Shown: positions 3,974 through 62,825 of the stretch, piece after piece | Position numbering within the stretch: position 1 is the stretch's first letter | How the letters are laid out: every line of letters starts with the position of its first letter | Assembly: GCF_026210795.1 (NCBI RefSeq) | Contig: NC_089454.1 | Coordinates: 3,162,001 to 3,226,000, forward strand | DNA length: 64,000 bases | Reading direction: 5' to 3' | Source: Rhizophagus irregularis | Taxonomy: Eukaryota > Glomeromycota > Glomeromycetes > Glomerales > Glomeraceae | Position numbers and translations under genes: made by a program | The notes under the pieces: generated by a model | The model's input: only the letters and a program-made list of their open reading frames with translations | Databases searched by the model: none | What the model was told of the DNA's origin: nothing

Positions 3974-4727
3974 CCTTCTAAAAGGAATTTTAAGTATCGT
4001 GTTTTATTTCTATACAATTTTTTATGGTGAACCATTAACGTTTGAGACATTTGTGTCACAAGCACGTGATTTTTTCCTGTTGGTCATTATGTAATTAACT
4101 AACATGCAAAGTTTCGTCATATGGACGATCATAATCTAATTGTATCTTATTGTAAAACATGTATAAATAATTGTGTAATATTGATCACGATTTTTGGACT
4201 TTTCTCATTAATGAATATTCTGCTAAAATTAATAAATGGTTAATATTTATTCTACAATATAATGAGAAAAAAATTTGTAGCAGTATATTTATTGGGATTT
4301 TCACGATTAAATATCTATAATTTATTTTTTCATTATCATTTCACATTATCCTTTGCAATTAATTATTCAAATGATATTTTTGTAATTTAAAAAAAATTTA
4401 GAATTATTTATGGAAAAGAATCTTATTTACATTTTATAAGATTTTCTATGATTTGATTTGTCTATACTGATCCGGGACCTAAGATCAGCTGATCTGGACT
4501 GGGTATGCGTCCCTTAGATAAAGTGATTTTTGATAAAGGTAACGATAATCGTTAACTTATTTTTTCTCTTCTTATTAGGAACAGCACATACTCTTGAATA
4601 AAGGCGAGTTTGGTTATCCGATTAACTTGAGCGTTATTTATCGTTAAACTTTTTTAGGAACCAATCAAAATTCTGCAAAATGAGTTTCGTGGAGGTTATC
4701 GGGTTTTCCGATTGTATTATTTTTTTT
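3974..4727. other. Intergenic, no gene seen
   Basis: AT-rich sequence with a small GC-richer island near 4470-4510 (TGATCCGGGACC and related words) that may be debris of the TIR element beginning at 4730. No coding evidence. Confidence 0.6.
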
Positions 4728-4910
4728 TACAGCTGTTTTCATAAGACCTGGGACAAACTAAATTTTTGAACCCGATCTGCCGATCCGGTATTTTTAGCTT
4801 GGCACGTGATCCTGATTTGATAATTTGATTTGTAAAATAAATAACAACTGAACCGGATCGGTGGGTCGGCGGTCGGGTTCAAAAATTTATTTCTTATGAA
4901 AACAGCTGTA
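4728..4910. mobile_element. 179-bp TIR element flanked by TA (Tc1/mariner-like MITE)
   Basis: Terminal inverted repeats start CAGCTGTTTTCATAAGA at 4730 and end with the reverse complement at 4908. They stay alignable for about 57 bp per arm, including GATCCGGT, so most of the element can fold back on itself. It is flanked by TA on both sides (4728-4729 and 4909-4910), the TSD used by Tc1/mariner elements. There is no internal ORF, so it is non-autonomous. Confidence 0.8.
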
Positions 4911-24439: not shown

Positions 24440-24860
24440 CATTATTAGCGCAGCAAGAAATCTGATCAACAACTACCCCAGTGGCACCGACGCAAATGTA
24501 TCGTTCTTATACGATCAGGTGCTATGTTCTTATACGACTATACTTGCCGCCCATTTAAATGGGATGGGAGTCCCATCCCATCCCATCCCATCCCAAATCC
24601 CAAATCCCATTCCCATTCCAATCCCAAATCCCAATCCCAATCCCATCCCAAATCCCATTTCCTATAATTTCAGCCAAATTTTATAATTCCGGCCAAATTT
24701 TCCTTTTTGGGCACTTGAGTAACGTTACACAATCCAAAAAAGGCAATTTTGATTCTCATCAAAAACGGGGAAATGAGTTACACGATAATCCAAAAAAGGA
24801 AATTTTATGTCGATCACTTAATTCCGGCCAAAATTAAAAATTACGTGACTCCGGCAATAA
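24440..24860. repeat. Composite repeat with (CCCAT)n core, copy 1
   Basis: Module order is a TACCCCAGTGGCACCGACGC word, then an ATCGTTCTTATACGATCA block, then CTTGCCGCCCATTTAAATGG. These lead into an interrupted CCCATCCCAAATCCCATTCC array (about 24560-24660), followed by AATTCCGGCCAAATTTTCC-type words. The same modules appear inverted at 29430-29877, partly at 57775-57870, and as a short piece at 45345-45400. Frames across the array are Pro/Ile/Asn low-complexity artefacts. Confidence 0.75.
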
Positions 24861-25335: not shown

Positions 25336-25595
25336 CCTCAGACTAGAGGTGTGCTCCGGTGAAATCCGTTCAATCCGTCATCTGATCCGATCAAAAAACG
25401 GATCATCTGGATTAAGAATGAATGGATTGCGGATAATCCGGATGGATCCGTTGGATAACATCAGATTGATCGGATGTTACACAGATGACTGGTTTGACCG
25501 GATTGATCAGATAATCTGGTCAAATTCATAACTTTTTTTTTTTTTTTTAACATAAATGTTTTTTTTTTAAAAAAAAAACACCTTTTTTTCTTTAG

Positions 25596-27780
25596 GACGG
25601 ACTTGGACTTGGACTTCAGAATGACTTGGACGGCTTGAATTTCGAAAAGTAAGTGTAAATTTCTTTTTCTTTTGTCTTGGGAACGTCACTAAACGTTCCT
25701 TTACTTCATTTCTTTAGGGGACGCCTGCCTGGAACTCAATTTCGGCTTGGGCTATAAAGGTAAGTTGGGGGAGGGTAATTTTGATTTTTTGTTTGTCTTT
25801 GGGAATGTCATTAACGTTCCTTTTGCTTTTTTTCTTTAGGAGACGCCCTCCCGAATTTGGATTTCATAAAGGTAAGTTGGGGGAGGGTATTTTCAGGTTT
25901 TTTTTTGTCTTTGGGAACGTCATTAACGTTCCTTTTGCTTTTTTTCTCTAGGTGACGCCCTTCCTAGACCTGGATTTCGGTTTGGGCTATTAAAGTAAGT
26001 TGGGAAAATTAATTTTTGTTTTTTTTTTGTCTTTAGGAACGTCATTAACGTTCCTTTTGCTTCTTTTCTTTAGGTGACACCCTTCCTAACCTGGATTTCG
26101 GCTTGGGCTATTAAAGTAAGTTGGGGAGGTTATTTTTGAGTTTTTTTTTGTCTTTGGGAACGTAATTAACGTTTCTTTTGCTTCTTTTCTTTAGGTGACG
26201 CCCTTCCTGGACCTTGATTTCGGCTTGGGCTATTAAAGTAAGTTGGGGAAGTTAATTTTTGTTTTTTTTTTGTCTTTAGGAACATCATTAACGTTCCTTT
26301 TGCTTCTTTTCTTTAGGTGACGCCCTTCCTGGACCTGGATTTCGGCTTGGGCTATTAAAGTAAGTTGGGGAGGGTGTTTTATCTTTTTTTTTTGTCTTTA
26401 GGAACGTCATTAACGTTCCTTTTGCTTCTTCCCTTTAGGTGATGCCCTTCCTAACCTGGATTTCGGCTTGGGCTATTAAAGTAAGTTGGGGAGGTTATTT
26501 TTGAGTTTTTTTTGTCTTTGGGAACGTAATTAACGTTCCTTTTGCTTCTTTTCTTTAGGTGACACCCTTCCTGGACCTTGATTTCGGCTTGGGCTATTAA
26601 AGTAAGTTGGGGAAGTTAATTTTTGTTTTTTTTTGTCTTTAGGAACGTCATTAACGTTCCTTTTGCTTCTTTTCTTTAGGTGACGCCATTCCTAACCTGG
26701 ATTTCGGCTTGGGCTATTAAAGTAAGTTGGTGAGGTTATTTTTGGGGTTTTTTTTGTCTTTGGGAACGTAATTAACGTTCCTTTTGCTTCTTTTCTTTAG
26801 GTGATGCCCTTCCTGGATCTGGATTTCGGCTTAGGCTATTAAAGTAAGTTGAGGGAGGGTGTTTTGCTTATTTTTTTTTTAGGAACGTCATTAACGTTCC
26901 TTTTGCTTCTTTTCTTTAGGTGACGCCCTTCCTAACCTGGATTTCAGCTTGGGCTATTAAAGTAAGTTGGGGAGGTTATTTTTAGGTTTTTTTTGTCTTT
27001 GGGAACGTAACTAATGTTCCTTTTGCTTCTTTTCTTTAGGTGACGCCCTTCCTAACCTGGATTTCGGCTTGGGTTATTAAAGTAAGTTGGGGAGGGTGTT
27101 TTATCTTTTTTTTTGTCTTTAGGAACGTCATTAACGTTCCTTTTGCTTCTTTTCTTTAGGAGACGCCCTCCCGGATTTGGATTTCATAAAGGTAAGTTGG
27201 GGAGGTTATTTTTGAGTTTTTTTTGTCTTTGGGAACGTAATTAACGTTCCTTTTGCTTCTTTTCTTTAGGTGACGCCCTTCCTGGACCTGGATTTCGGCT
27301 TGGGCTATTAAAGTAAGTTGGAAGGGTGTTTTATCTTTTTTTTTTGTCTTTAGGAACGTCATTAACGTTCCTTTTGCTTCTTTTCTTTAGGAGACGCCCT
27401 CCCGGATTTGGATTTCATAAAGGTAAGTTGGGGAGGTTATTTTTGAGTTTTTTTTGTCTTTGGAAACGTAATTAACGTTCCTTTTGCTTTTTTTCTTTAG
27501 GTGACGCCCTTCCTGGACCTGGATTTCGGCTTGGGCTATTAAAGTAAGTTGGGGAAGGGTTTTTTATCTTTTTTTTTTGTCTTTAGGAACGTAACTAACG
27601 TTCCTTTTGCTTCTTTCTTTAGGAGGACGCCTCTTGGACCTGGATTTCGGCATGGGTTATAAAGGTAAGTTGGGGGAAAGGTATTTTTGTTTTTTTGTTT
27701 TTAGGAACGTAATTAACATTCCTTTTGCTTTTTTTTTTAGGGAGACACCTTCTTGGACCTCTAAATCTTAAACTTTTTAT
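25596..27780 (+). repeat. Tandem array of about 19 mini exon/intron units
   Basis: Each unit has an acceptor (CTTTCTTTAG-type), an exon-like block of 32, 42 or 43 nt (first one 53 nt), and a donor (GTAAGTTGGGG). It continues with a T-rich stretch, the hairpin word GGAACGTCATTAACGTTCC and a pyrimidine tract. Exon-like starts are 25596, 25718, 25840, 25952, 26074, 26195, 26317, 26439, 26559, 26680, 26801, 26920, 27040, 27160, 27270, 27391, 27501, 27623 and a last one at 27741 without donor. Intron-like parts are roughly 69-80 nt. The exon consensus reads, in one frame, D-A-L-x-x-L-D-F-G-L-G-Y-K. Most units have TATTAAA where others have TATAAAG, which puts a TAA in that frame, so coding is broken or absent. 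Confidence 0.8.
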
Positions 27781-28473
27781 AAATATTGTGTCAACTAATT
27801 TGTTAAAAATCATTTGTAATAACGTTGAAGTCCCCCTATTCCCTCTGTCATCAATTTACAGAGTTGCCACATCGAACGGGCATCCTCATGGTCGAACGAA
27901 TGAATAAACAAACGAACAAACAATTAAACGAACAAGCGATTAATCAACAACATAATTAACAAACAACATAATTAACGAACAATATACAATAACATATAAC
28001 AACAACATTCTTGGTTCACAACATAAATAGCGTTAGTAATATAAAACATTAAACGATATAAAATAAAATTTACTTCTCTAAATTTTCCCCAAATTATATC
28101 CACTTTTACCTTTAATTTCAAACTTCGATAGCTCTCGCTACGAATTATTACTTCTCAAAAACATATATTTAATTTATCTTAAAATTTTCATTTATTTAAT
28201 TAAAATTAATTAAGCGAACATTAATTAAAGTTTAGGGCGAACCTATTACCTTTAATTAATATTAAACTTTACTAACAAATAATTAAATGAAACCTATATT
28301 TTTATTGAGTTCTGTGGATGAGAACTGTGGAATTACTTTGAATTCCATTCTCTATTTATACAAATTTTACGCTACTTTCTATTCTATCTATATACTATCT
28401 TTTATGTTCTTTTTACATATTATCTTTGAACTATCTTTCTAATATACTATCTATATTTTAAATACGCTATCTT

Positions 28474-28550
28474 TTAATATGCTATCTTTTATATATGTTC
28501 TTTTTAATATGTTATCTTTTATATATGTTCTTTTTAATATATTATCTTTT
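28474..28550. repeat. 30-bp tandem repeat, about 2.5 copies
   Basis: The unit is roughly ATATGYTATCTTTTATATAT then GTTCTTTTTA, within a longer (CTATCTTTTATA)n-like low-complexity tract (about 28370-28600) in the right arm of the hAT-like element. Confidence 0.65.
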
Positions 28551-29429
28551 ATATTCCATCTTTATACTATCTTTTTATATTATCTTTTATATTATTTTAT
28601 GTTCTTAAATCTTTCTGACATTATTTTATATGTTCTTTTAATTCGCTTTATGTGTTTTACTTATAATCTATCTTTTGTGGCTTATAATTATTCTTTCTAA
28701 TTGTTCTTATTGTTAAAGATTGCTAAGCCGCAATTGATCGACTCTAATTATCCTATTGGTTCTTTGTCAATCATTCAACAAATATTACATCATGTAGATC
28801 ATTACTTTTCTTAAATGTTTATCCTTTTCGGCTAATTATTTATCCATCTACGCCAATTCATAATTAATTTGTTCGTTCTTAATATTTAGTAATTACATTT
28901 GGTGGTTGAATTTTACCATATTTTCATGCTTGATATTTGACCGTTTACAACGTAAAAATAAATACTATGTTTATTATTATAAAATTCTAATTGTTAATTA
29001 ATATTAATAAAAAGTATTAAGTAGAAAAAACTGAATTCGGATTCACCAGATTCACCGGATTGACCGGATTATTCAGATATCCGGTCAACCATCCGTTCAA
29101 ATTGGTGAGCAATTATTGACCAGATATCCAATGATCCATCCGGTCAATCCGATGAATCATCCGGATCAATCCGAATCCGGTCAAATTTCGGATGGATGAC
29201 CGGATATCTGGATTGACCGGATTCGGAGCATACCTCTACCTCAGACATCTATTATAGAATTCATAATGGCTTTTTGCAAAAATTAACCTAATCTGCTCTT
29301 TTTTTTTTATTATTTCTTGCAAGAAATATTTTTATTTTATAGAGCTTAATATTAGCTACAAATTAAAAAAAAGTTTATCAAAATTGGATCACCGGATATT
29401 GAGAAAATCGCAAAAAACTAATTTGAAAA

Positions 29430-29877
29430 AGGACCGTAATACTAGAGCTGTAATTCTGGCCGGAATTATATGATCGGCATAAAAATTTCCTTTTTCGGAA
29501 TGCTTGTGAAACCAAATCTCACATTTTTTGTGGGAAGAAAAATTTCCTTTTTTGGAATTTTGTGTAACATTACGTGATAGATAGACCAATGGGAGTAAGG
29601 TTACACAATATACATGTATAAGATTAATGGGATATGGGATGGGATATGGGATATGGGATTGGAATGGGAATGGGATTTGGGATTGGAATGGGATTATGAC
29701 AAATGGGATGGGATAAATGGGATATGGGATGGGATATGGGTGGGATGGGATATGGGATTCTCCCAATCCCATTTATATGGGTGGCAAGTATATATACGAC
29801 GTATATGTCACATAATATAGGTCGTATAAGATAGTATGTCGTACACGTATAAGAACGATACATTTGCGGCGCCGACA
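29430..29877. repeat. Composite repeat with (GGGAT)n core, copy 2, inverted
   Basis: Reverse orientation relative to 24440-24860. It begins with AATTCTGGCCGGAATTATA-like words, then a GGGATATGGGATGGGATATG array (29630-29760), then ATGGGTGGCAAGTATA. It ends with a CGTATAAGAACGATACATTT block. The next inverted-repeat element (29878) interrupts it; the expected continuation GGTGCCACTGGGGTA lies on the far side at 30238. Confidence 0.75.
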
Positions 29878-58117: not shown

Positions 58118-61100
58118 TTATGAATTCAGACTTTTCTTGAGATAAATTTCAGTAAATTTAGTGAATTTGCGACTTGTATAATATGCTTGTGGATGAGATT
58201 GCATAATAGAAGTGTTTGCTTGTTCTTGTACTAAAGTTTTGTTTTCTTCTACAAATTCAAGCATATCATCTTTTAATTGATTATCATTAATAGGCATTTG
58301 ATATTTATAATTTTCGTCCCTGTTTATTTCATAATATTTATTAATACATCTAATCCATTCAGATACAATATTTTCAAGCATTCTTATGGTTGGTCTATTG
58401 GAGGAATTTGAATCCCAACATTTTTTCATTAAATCTTTATAACATTTTGGAGTATTTTTTATAATTTCAGGACGTTTTTCTTGATTACAAATATCCAAGA
58501 CAAGTTCAAGATCATGTACTTCATTATTAAATGGAGGAATATCTGATGTAAATTCCCACATTATCATTGAAAAACTATAGATATCACTTGCTGGAGTATA
58601 GGGTTCGTTTCTTAATATTTCAGGAGCCATATAAGGTAAAACTCCATAAATTTCATTAGCCTTATTACCAGAATCACTTATAGGTTTACATAATCCTAAA
58701 TCAATAATAAACAACTCATTGTAATTATCTGACATTAAAATATTACCATCATGAAAATCACCATGAGTTAAATTTGATTCATGAATTACTTTAAGCCCTA
58801 AAATAATTGTTTTCAATAATTGTAGCTTATCTTGCCACTTAAATTTAACTATATCAGATAAACATTTTCTCAAACTTCCTTTTTTCGCATAACTCATTAC
58901 AATTATATAATTTAAATTATTTGGATCTTGAGTAATTCCAAAGAATTGAATAAATTTTGAAAATGAATTTTTCTGACAATTATAATGATATTTCCACTAT
59001 ATAGATGTAAAAAAAATATTAGGTTTTTTGCAAAAGAAAATAAAATTTGCTATTAAAATAATACTATACCTCATCCAGAAATTTACTATTTAAACTTGAT
59101 GAATTATTAAGTATTTTGAGAACAACCTCATAATCTATTTGTCTATTCCATTGTTGTTTTTTAAAATTCCAACTATAAATAGGTCCATCTAACCAGATAG
59201 CTTTATGGATTTCACTAAATCCTCCTTTATCATAATAATCAATACTTGACAATTTATTATAAGGTATCCATTCTAAAATTTCATAACTATTTTTAGCATT
59301 TAATTGTGCTTCTTGAATAAATTCATTAATAAATTCATTTTTGCTAGTCCACTTTGAAAAATCTTGTTGAAATCGTCTAGCATTACATTGTTGGCACCAC
59401 TGCATGCATTCATTACATGACTCAACTTCATTTTTAGGATTTACTTTATCATTTTCTGCTAATTTTTGATACCAATAAAAAGCTTTTTCTAAATTCTTCC
59501 TTGTCCCATCTCCATTACTATAACATTTTACTAAATTAAACATTGCCGTTTCATCCCCATTTTCTGCTGTTTTTTGATACCAATGAAATGCTCTTTCTAA
59601 ATTCTTTTCTGTTCCTTCTCCATTTTCATAACATATGGCTAAATTAAACATTGCTACTTTATTACCATTTTCTGCTGCTTTTTGATACCAATAAAAGGCT
59701 TTTTCTAAATTCTTTTCTGTTCCTTTTCCATCATCATAACTATTGGCTAAACTATTCATTGCTTCATCACAACCATTTTCTGCTGCTTTTTGATACCAAT
59801 GAAAGGCTTTTTCTAAATTCTTTTCTGTTCCTTTTCCATTTTCATAACACATGGCTAAATTACACATTGCTTTTTCATCACCATTTTCTGCTGCTTTTTG
59901 ATACAAATGAAAGGCTTTCTCTAAATTCTTTTCTGTTCCTTTCCCATTATAATATCTATTGGCTAAATTAAACATTGCACTAGCATGACCATTTTCTGCT
60001 GCTTTTTGATACCAATGAAAGGCTTTTTCTAAATTCTTTCCTGTTCCTTTTCCATTTTTATAGCACATGGCTAAATTATACATTGCTTTTTCATTACCAT
60101 ATTCTGCTGCTTTTTGATACAAATAAAAGGCTTTTTCTAAATTCTTTTCAGTTCCTTTTCCATTTTCATAACATATAGCTAAACTATTCATTGCATTTTC
60201 ATAACCATTCTCTGCTGCTTTTTGACACCAATGAAAGACTTTTTCTAAATTCTTTTCTGTTCCTTCTCCATTTTCATAACATATGGCTAAACTATTCATT
60301 GCATTTTCATCACCATTCTCTGCTGCTTTTTGATACCAATAAAAAGCTTTTTCTAAATTCTTTTCTATTCCTACTCCATTTTTATAGCATATAGCTAAAC
60401 TATTCATTGCTTCATCATCATTTTCTGCTGCTTTTTGATACAAATGAAAAGCTTTTTCTAAATTCTTTTCTGTTCCTTTTCCATTTTTATAGCACATGGC
60501 TAAATTACACATTGCTTTTTCATCACCATTTTCTGCTGCTTTTTGATACAAATGAAAAGCTTTTTCTAAATTCTTTTCAGTTCCATCTCCATTTTCATAA
60601 CATATAGCTAAACTATTCATTGCATTTTCATCACCATTTTCTACTGCTTTTTGATACCAATAAAATGCTTTTTCTAAATTCTTTTCTGTTCCTTCTCCAT
60701 TTTCATAACATATAGCTAAACTATTCATTGCATTTTCATCCCCATTTTCTGCTGCTTTTTGATACCAATAAAAGGCTTTTTCTAAATTCTTTTCTGTTCC
60801 TTTTCCATTTTCATAACATATAGCTAAACTATTCATTGCATTTTCATCACCATTTTCTGCTGCTTTTTGATACCAATAAAAGCCTTTTTCTAAATTCTTT
60901 TCTGTTCCTTCTCCATTTTCATAACATATAGCTAAACTATTCATTGCATTTTCATCCCCATTTTCTGCTGCTTTTTGATACCAATAAAAGCCTTTTTCTA
61001 AATTCTTTTCTGTTCCTTCTCCATTTTCATAACATATAGCTAAACCATTCATTGCATTTTCATCCCCATTTTCTGCTGCTTTTTGATACCAATGAAAAGC

Positions 61101-62825
61101 TTTTTCTAAATTCTTTTCTGTTCCTTCTCCATTTTCATAACATATAGCTATATTATTCATTGCATTTTCATCCCCATTTTCTGCTGCTTTTTGATACCAA
61201 TGAAAAGCTTTTTCTGAATTCTTTTCTGTTCCTTTTCCATTTTCATAACATATGGCTAAACTATACATTGCATTTTCATCACCATTTTCTACTGCTTTTT
61301 GATACCAATAAAAAGCTTTTTCTAAATTCTTTTCTGTTCCTTCTCCATTTTCATAACATATAGCTAAACCATTCATTGCATTTTCATCCCCATTTTCTGC
61401 TGCTTTTTGATACCCATGAAAAGCTTTTTCTAAATTCTTTTCTGTTCCTTCTCCGTTTTCATAACATGTGGCTAAATTAAACATTGCTTTTTTATCACCA
61501 TTTTCTGCTGCTTTTTGATACCAATGAAAAGCTTTTTCTAAATTCTTTTCTGTTCCTTCTCCATTTTCATAACATATAGCTAAACTATTCATTGCATTTT
61601 CATCCCCATTTTCTGCTGCTTTTTGATACCAATAAAATGCTTTTTCTAAATTCTTTTCTGTTCCTTCTCCATGATAATAACATATAGCTAAACTATTCAT
61701 TGCATTTTCATCACCATTTTCTGCAGCTTTTTGATACCAATGAAAGGCTTTTTCTAAATTCTTTTCTGTTCCTTCTCCATTTTCATAACATGTGGCTAAA
61801 TTAAACATTGCTGTTTCATCACCATTTTCTGCTGCTTTTTGATACCAATGAAAAGCTTTTTCTAAATTTTTTTCTGTTCCTTCTCCATTTTTATAGTGTA
61901 CTGCTAAATTATTCATTGCACAAGTATGACCATTTTCTACTGCCTTTTGATACCAATAAAAGGCTTTTTGTAAATTCTTTTCTGTTTTTTTTCCATTATA
62001 ATAGCTATTGGCTAAATTAAACATTGCTGTTTCATCACCATTTTCTGCAGCTATTTGATACCAATGAAAAGCTTTTTCTAAATTCTTTTCTGTTCCTTTT
62101 CCATTTTCATAACATATAGCTAAATTAAACATTGCTTTTTTATCACCATTTTCTACTGCTTTTTGATACCAATAAAAGGCTTTTTCTAAATTCTTTTCTG
62201 TTCCTTCTCCATTTTCATAAAATATGGCTAAAACAAACATTGCCATTTCATCGCCATTTTCTGCTGCTTTTTGACACCAATGAAAAGATTTTTCTAAATT
62301 CTTTTCTGTTCCTTCTCCATTTTTATAACATATGACTAAACTATTCATTGCATTTTCATCACCATTTTCTGCTGCTTTTTGATACCAATAAAAGGCTTTT
62401 TCTAAATTCTTTTCTGTTCCTTCTCCATTTTCATAAAATATGGCTAAATTAAACATTGCTTTTTCACTACCATTTTCTACTGCTTTTTGACACCAATGAA
62501 ATGCTTTTTCTAAATCCTTTTCTGCTCCTTTTCCATGATAATAACATATGGCTAAACTATTCATTGCTTCTTCATAACCATTTTCGGCTGCTTTTTGATA
62601 CCAATAAAAGGCTTTTTTAAAATTCTTTTCTGTTCCTTTTCCATCTCTATATCTATTAGCTAAATTAAATATTGCTACTTTATCACCATTTTCTGCTGAT
62701 CTTTCTAAAGAATTAATACATTCTTTACGCCATAATTCTTCAGTATATGGTTCATAACAATTTTTGGTATTTATCGTATCAGTATCTTTATCTGGGATAT
62801 TTAAATTATTAAGGTTAGTTCCCAT
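58118..62825 (-). CDS. Sel1-repeat protein kinase, 1545 aa, two exons
   Basis: Exon 1 is 62825-59070 and exon 2 is 58996-58118, with a 73-bp intron (GTATAG donor, CTATATAG acceptor). The N-terminus (residues 1-36) has a degenerate Cys block. Residues about 44-1122 are 30 Sel1-like repeats, 36 residues each (one of 35), consensus A-E-N-G-D-E-N-A-M-N-S-L-A-I-C-Y then G-E-G-T-E-K-N-L-E-K-A-F. These helical repeats form a solenoid for protein binding. A second Cys block (about 1137-1147), W-T-S-K-N and W-I-P-Y precede the kinase: loop D-K-G-G-F-S-E-I-H, K1237, H-G-D-F-H-D-G-N (D1332), D-L-G 1351-1353, A-P-E 1376-1378. H-R-D has Gly for Arg and the loop is atypical, so activity may be altered. The tail has Y-Y-T-S-R. 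Likely a scaffolded signalling kinase. Confidence 0.9.
59460..62696 (-). repeat. 30 tandem 108-bp units (Sel1 repeats at DNA level)
   Basis: Nearly identical 108-bp units, most strikingly units 10-20 (about 60650-61720), where neighbours differ by a few bases. One unit (the 22nd) lacks a codon. Such an array is prone to unequal exchange, so the copy number may vary between isolates or nuclei, and short-read assemblies may collapse it. Confidence 0.85.

Follow-up and report, generated by a model that had tools for sequence, protein, structure and literature searches.

A non-autonomous hAT transposon of Rhizophagus irregularis with a tandem intron-like array that recurs in other transposon families

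A 64,000-nucleotide stretch of the Rhizophagus irregularis genome (assembly GCF_026210795.1, contig NC_089454.1, positions 3,162,001 to 3,226,000; hereafter the window) contains a non-autonomous hAT transposon at 25344–29238 with 18 mini-exon/intron units arrayed in tandem in its interior. The array is not a protein gene. It is a trait of the whole family of elements, with a unit number that varies from copy to copy, and the same intron type forms arrays in two more families, E and F, which have other terminal inverted repeats (TIRs) and 8-bp target site duplications (TSDs). Judging from consensus sequences, the introns are kept more alike than the exons between families. We tentatively favor the reading, to which we give a little under an even chance, that the array is a splice-competent, non-coding intron-array module common to several hAT families.

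The window element and its array

The left TIR of the element (TAGAGGTGTGCTCCG, 25344–25358, plus strand) agrees at 14/15 positions with the reverse complement of the right end (TAGAGGTATGCTCCG); read on the plus strand, the right TIR is CGGAGCATACCTCTA (29224–29238). An 8-bp TSD, CCTCAGAC, flanks the element at 25336–25343 and 29239–29246 and is perfect (8/8). Short hAT TIRs are of the type YARNG, and the left TIR, which begins TAGAG, fits that consensus. We found no transposase in the window copy. The element is classed as non-autonomous, which its superfamily allows, because stop-to-stop frames overlapping it reach at most 85 aa, and the longest of them lies within a nested solo long terminal repeat (LTR). 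Once the LTR is subtracted, the element's own length is about 2.77 kb.

The array occupies 25596–27740 on the plus strand with a period of about 121 bp. It is preceded by an acceptor-like CTTTAG (25590–25595) that has no donor upstream within the element, and it begins with a first mini-exon of 53 nt (25596–25648). Intron-like units 1 to 9 follow at 25649–25717, 25760–25839, 25872–25951, 25995–26073, 26116–26194, 26238–26316, 26360–26438, 26481–26558 and 26602–26679, and units 10 to 18 at 26722–26800, 26844–26919, 26962–27039, 27082–27159, 27192–27269, 27313–27390, 27423–27500, 27544–27622 and 27665–27740, all on the plus strand. For the donor at 26844 (unit 11), a nearer acceptor, TTTTTTTTTTAG, lies 39 nt downstream with its AG at 26882 and fits equally well. 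Mini-exons between the introns measure 32–43 nt. The last mini-exon and an AT-rich tail (27741–27825, plus strand) are 97.6–100% identical in 14 other subfamily-A copies.

An earlier, sequence-only reading of this DNA had described a hAT-like element with inverted ends, a perfect 8-bp TSD and 18 donor–acceptor pairs in tandem. All of this holds: the TIR match and the TSD are as given above, relatives of the element carry hAT transposase remains, and GTAAGT is present in 18/18 units with an acceptor 69–80 nt downstream in each. Its statement that every unit keeps both GTAAGT and CTTTAG stands only for the donor, as the intron at 25872–25951 ends CTCTAG and the last one ends TTTTTAG. The nested solo LTR (27826–28948) and a palindrome at the branch sites had been overlooked.

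The pattern GTAAGT-N45-75-TTTAG has 20 matches in the window, 17 of them within the element, where 1.81 were expected and the maximum of 100 shuffles was 5. The branch sites lie within the palindrome GGAACGTnAYTAACGTTCC or close variants of it, with GTAAGT about 40 bp upstream and a T-tract and TAG downstream. Allowing up to two mismatches, this palindrome has 30 matches in the window (0.23 expected) at 17 sites, 13 of which match on both strands, and every one is inside the element. The first intron carries one extra base in its palindrome and so goes unmatched by the pattern.

Related elements in the genome

Searching the genome (146,748,485 bases, 32 contigs) with the unit and with the ends, as the sequence-only reading had proposed, revealed many other copies. 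There are at least 45 left-end, 62 right-end and 317 unit matches at largely the same loci, all lower bounds, with the best 40 of 57, 40 of 56 and 40 of 61 candidates scored, respectively. The roughly 150 of the 317 unit matches that are listed all fall at loci that also bear element ends (compared by eye). A unit found only as plain satellite outside the element, named earlier among the findings that would refute the sequence-only interpretation, did not occur for the window's own unit among these listed matches.

We examined 39 sequences representing 37 distinct loci. A- or C-type units are present at 36/37 of these, which makes the earlier description of the array as cargo misleading; for the 37th locus (M13) the fetched piece spans the right end alone, and a unit is listed to its left, within that element. 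In the 20 copies with both ends located, TSDs match at 8/8 in 11 and at 7/8 in 4, with no match in 5 (M02, M04, M23, L069, L070). Subfamily-A arrays have 9–24 units in 14 copies, and a fifteenth, cut locus shows 3. One copy (contig 27:11128–13637) probably jumped into another transposon, because hAT transposase matches flank it on both sides (contig 27:10900–14232). We considered L077 (8.7 kb, TSD 8/8) as an autonomous partner and set it aside, since its stop-to-stop frames reach at most 121 aa and its array is broken up by other repeats.

Two decayed larger relatives, L069 (contig 9) and L070 (contig 5), share their ends with the window element and carry hAT transposase remains beside intron-like units. 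The transposase frames are broken and lie on the minus strand; in L069 the hAT dimerisation domain PF05699 scored 2.8e-10, above the Pfam cut-off. When a 316-aa frame was used as query, L069 and L070 were the only close copies among the matches listed (126 of 350 candidates scored), and the remaining listed matches were at most 62% identical, short fragments aside. Both loci have units in both arms, pointing inward, with A-unit matches of +2/−4 in L069 and +8/−9 in L070. The second array of L070 is taken as an inverted copy of the first arm, because the two arms form inverted pairs, the five longest of which have 90–96% complementarity. The arrays of L072 (~600–850) and L069 (~4470–4730, minus strand) are each interrupted by a similar short palindrome (AAGGTTGCTTG...CAAGCAACCTTA), which is apparently a further small mobile element.

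Subfamily C (L071, L072, L074, L075, L077) has left ends 74–81% and right ends 75–80% identical to those of the window element over the matched parts. Its arrays have a period of about 112 bp and a 32-nt exon, with the unit motifs GTAAGTGTGTGG..., GAAACGTACTAACGTTTC and TTTTTTGTAG. The C-type array L079 continues into exon/intron-like units of other types, and L080 has partial element ends only.

Family E (contig 28, L078/L087) is 4,531 bp long, with a perfect 17-bp TIR (TATACATGGCCTGGTAA) and the TSD AATTACAA; contig 23 carries another copy with 98% identity across 2,445 bp. Its units are about 102 bp with 22-nt exons. Transposase-like frames on its minus strand match DUF659 (3.1e-20), and the element seems to contain most of a hAT transposase gene, split over several frames. 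Its TIR begins TATAC, outside the hAT consensus YARNG. The element lies inside a polymerase-like frame of another mobile element, as judged by eye.

Family F (L083) is 1,755 bp long, with the TIR TAGTGCTC, the TSD TTCTTGAA, units of about 129 bp and 53-nt exons; judged from its ends alone, it would be a hAT element. Its unit has at least 289 genome matches (best 40 of 119 candidates scored). Type G (L084) has units of about 127 bp and at least 108 matches (best 40 of 197 candidates scored). The arrays of types H (L086) and I (L085) were seen in part only; at both loci, palindrome matches that looked isolated turned out to be arrays.

Common to the families is an intron type with a GT donor, an AACGTnAYTAACGTT core, a T-tract and TAG. 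The exons range from 22 to 53 nt across array families and mostly differ between them. Genome-wide, the palindrome RAACGTNAYTAACGTTYC has 344 + 233 exact matches (577, of which 100 are listed by place), and the reversed control has 1 + 0.

Conservation of introns and exons

We compared six hand-read consensuses in 15 pairs, expressing similarity relative to shuffles (z). Intron similarity between families reached z 3.2–15.0 in 15/15 pairs and exon similarity z 0.2–3.3 in 14/15 (the exception being A–D, which are close kin), a comparison in which the intron values are inflated because shuffling breaks T-runs and the exon values are lowered by the shorter exons.

Within groups, mismatch in the splice columns was compared with that in columns of equal base and CpG context, using 20,000 resamples. 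In the 224 units of subfamily A, the young subfamily, mismatch in the donor hexamer was 0.4%, against 9.75% in matched columns, and 0 of 20,000 resamples were as low. All splice columns combined fell below control (p = 0.006 in A, 0.004 in B, 0.017 in C and 0.029 in D), as did the stem arms (0.0004 in A, 0 of 20,000 in B, 0.003 in C and 0 of 20,000 in D); these p-values are rough, given the non-independence of units within an array and the small number of matched columns. Donor and acceptor are both present by a loose rule in 209/224 A, 67/86 B, 30/40 C and 20/25 D units, and in strict alignment columns in 209 A, 42 B, 25 C and 10 D units.

These data bear on what we regard as the strongest alternative, that the array is a passive relic. 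An intron-containing stretch would have been trapped long ago near an old hAT end, slippage and recombination would keep making arrays from it, and the signals would be inherited and unused, leaving internal satellite DNA. Much of what we see is as expected on this account: young arrays are homogeneous and older ones decay, unit number varies freely among copies, the arrays have no coding content, and common descent alone would give the ATTTCGG exon stretch that A, C, D and E have in common. It does not lead one to expect that the exon changes more than the intron between families, or that combined splice columns and stem arms lie below context-matched controls in all four groups. On balance, we think a passive relic rather unlikely.

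The branch-site palindrome

The left arm of the palindrome fits the right arm of its own family better than the right arms of other families (8.56 vs. 7.85 of 10 pairs, p ~0.003), in a test that is biased because left arms were chosen at the loop length pairing best with their own right arm, and whose nine groups are not independent, with H and I contributing two introns each. Palindromes of C, E and G have A-T where those of A, D and F carry G-C. Among stem cells within groups, G-U is no commoner than a broken pair (105 vs. 120). This gives no preference for RNA pairing over a DNA palindrome, and the idea of an RNA hairpin under selection as such gains no support from it.

For the two window introns that were folded, the hairpin was predicted (z −2.00 and −2.21), as it was for intron pieces of C, F and G (z −3.04, −4.92 and −1.91). 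For an H intron piece cut before the right arm, the predicted fold reached z −4.41 through other helices. Donors of F, G and H also lie in or beside a hairpin (F and H by folding, G by reading); in the family F example, the donor is between GAACGAAC and GTTCGTTC.

The palindrome might instead work as DNA. AACGTnAYTAACGTT would then bind a transposase or a host factor, arrayed in the manner of hAT subterminal repeats, and the resemblance to an intron would be secondary. Such a role is consistent with stem arms that fall below control in four groups while G-U cells are not favored over broken ones, and with arrays that sit near the ends and point inward, in both of the complementary arms of L070. 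It leaves the GTAAGT about 40 bp upstream and the T-tract and TAG downstream unexplained, and the whole signal set is common to families with different TIRs. We consider a DNA-level signal improbable.

The array and the transposase gene

In L069 and L070 there are units upstream of the transposase frames and on their strand; this suggested that the array might be a 5′ untranslated, multi-exon leader of the transposase gene, retained in deletion derivatives. As a general rule this was rejected by family E, which has no palindrome match upstream of its transposase frames and whose sole array is on their 3′ side, on the other strand. In addition, the right arm of L070 is largely an inverted copy of the left, and non-autonomous copies keep the left arm. 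We think a spliced leader very improbable.

Coding content

In the 14 A copies, the lengths of 195 internal exons are distributed 70/80/45 modulo 3, and 184/195 are 32, 42 or 43 nt. No array yields a spliced frame longer than 77 aa. Mismatch by exon codon position showed no pattern common to all four groups. Protein database matches are R. irregularis in 13/14 cases in one search and 9/9 in another, the remaining one having E = 0.32; the named matches are all predicted R. irregularis proteins. We conclude that the array is not a protein gene because exon lengths ignore frame, the spliced frame is so short, and the exon changes more than the intron between families.

Public R. irregularis annotations hold predicted proteins built on the arrays, some of them apparently fused to flanking sequence (P0001, P0004, P0005, P0006). 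The model P0005 (OCT59_006753) spans the left boundary of the contig 14 copy. The DAOM197198 annotation drew on Illumina and Nanopore RNA sequencing (PMC10234402). We did not count OCT59_006753 as proof of splicing, because such models leave array exons at non-consensus places (by our own reading) and are predictions.

Capture of a host gene, a multi-exon repetitive (perhaps secreted) protein gene taken up and amplified, was the first idea of the sequence-only reading and is now hardly credible, being already largely refuted: some exons of old copies do read as 14-aa repeats like GDACLDLDFGLGYE, and gene predictors did build proteins from arrays, but exon lengths ignore frame, no spliced frame exceeds 77 aa, the one protein match not named as R. 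irregularis has E = 0.32, and other families use mostly different exons. The other idea offered there, a repeat whose unit is a splicing module, appears better supported than capture by the sequences compared here.

Proposed role of the array

In our preferred reading, that of a splice-competent, non-coding module, the interior of the element would be an inward-pointing, gene-like array made of a first mini-exon, 18 introns, a last exon and an AT-rich tail. The array would be transcribed from the end inward and its introns spliced; we infer this because what the families keep is what the spliceosome reads. Removal of the introns upon transcription is most likely the property kept by selection. 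Unit number may shift via slippage or unequal exchange within the array. The module may have moved from one hAT family to another through recombination or nested insertion, with each family then amplifying a version of its own. The benefit to the element is probably at the RNA level, where a multiply spliced RNA could be better exported or shielded from small-RNA silencing; this is the weakest step.

Several observations count against this reading, beyond the biases of the similarity, resampling and arm tests and the lack of G-U preference described above. Donors alone gave p = 0.079 (B), 0.097 (C) and 0.18 (D), acceptors alone were significant in no group, and branch columns alone in B only. 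Old copies are decayed, with GTAAGT in 52/86 B and 11/25 D units. The exons are not wholly distinct: the short ATTTCGG stretch is common to those of A, C, D and E, and only F and G exons look quite different. In the 2.5 kb retrieved for the C-type array L079 (contig 8:2946800–2949300) no recognisable element ends were seen, and L069 and L070 have discordant TSDs (2/8 and 1/8). In family E the hAT dimerisation match (0.0048) is below the cut-off, the array is next to the 3′ end of the transposase frames, on the opposite strand and pointing against them, and the palindrome had no match upstream of those frames. No transposase was seen within the 1,755 bp of family F.

Other features of the window

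Between its TIRs and the array, the element has a left subterminal region (25359–25589, plus strand) with ATCCG/GGAT-type short repeats and T/A tracts at its end, and a right subterminal region (28954–29223, plus strand). The nested solo LTR (27826–28948, about 1.12 kb) belongs to an unrelated retroelement. Its TSD was read as AACGT (27821–27825 and 28949–28953); an LTR ending in CA with a 4-bp repeat is an alternative fit. It has at least 39 other copies in the genome (best 40 of 405 candidates scored), and 18 of the 39 listed relatives make nine pairs with a spacing of 9.7–10.3 kb.

Inverted arms surround the hAT element at 24488–24836 and 29451–29871, with pairs of 45–55 nt that are 78–90% complementary and consist partly of ATCCC/GGGAT repeats. 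The element seems to sit within a larger inverted-repeat element. Farther along the window, 30 units of 108 bp (36 codons) are repeated in tandem at 59450–62698, a stretch that is perhaps a Sel1-like repeat gene.

Comparison with known systems

The window element resembles other non-autonomous hAT elements in its 8-bp TSDs, its short TIR starting TAGAG, its subterminal short repeats and its larger relatives with hAT transposase remains. What sets it apart is the interior, a tandem intron-like array of a kind also present in families with other TIRs. Among DNA transposons with internal tandem repeats, Tetris and Galileo of Drosophila likewise have a tandem array of variable copy number in a terminal-inverted-repeat element; here, by contrast, each repeat is made up of an exon and an intron whose splice signals are preserved, and the listed matches of the window's unit are at element loci only.

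Among fungi, introner-like elements and symmetrical stwintrons also comprise families of related introns that have spread and that show internal symmetry or inverted repeats (PMC8469720). They are described at new gene positions, without site duplications, and with 45–55-nt terminal repeats (PMC8469720). The units described here form tandem arrays inside transposons with 8-bp TSDs, and their symmetry is a short branch-site hairpin. The listed A-unit matches lie at element loci, by eye.

The SP7-like effector genes of R. irregularis are likewise repeat-bearing genes with introns in the same fungus; they form a family of coding genes in which a conserved intron precedes the first repeat (PMC11333574), whereas the arrays here are out of frame. 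We found no description of such arrays in titles or the beginnings of abstracts in the open-licence literature, which is weak evidence of absence.

Significance

The origin and spread of introns is an open question. A broader claim, which we regard as doubtful, is that the R. irregularis genome as a whole harbors a family of hairpin introns living as tandem arrays in unrelated hAT transposons. Inheritance and exchange would concern the intron more than the exon, and the elements would serve as vectors or nurseries of spliceosomal introns. A single jump would deliver at least a dozen functional introns to a new locus, and the arrays may seed introns in host genes. The arrays already affect annotation, as gene predictors build proteins from them. 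The central claim, that of a splice-competent module, is testable with existing data, because both Illumina and Nanopore RNA sequencing are reported for the annotation of DAOM197198 (PMC10234402). Introns that are duplicated, kept and exchanged between element families as units of a transposon's interior would amount to a new way of storing introns and moving them in bulk.

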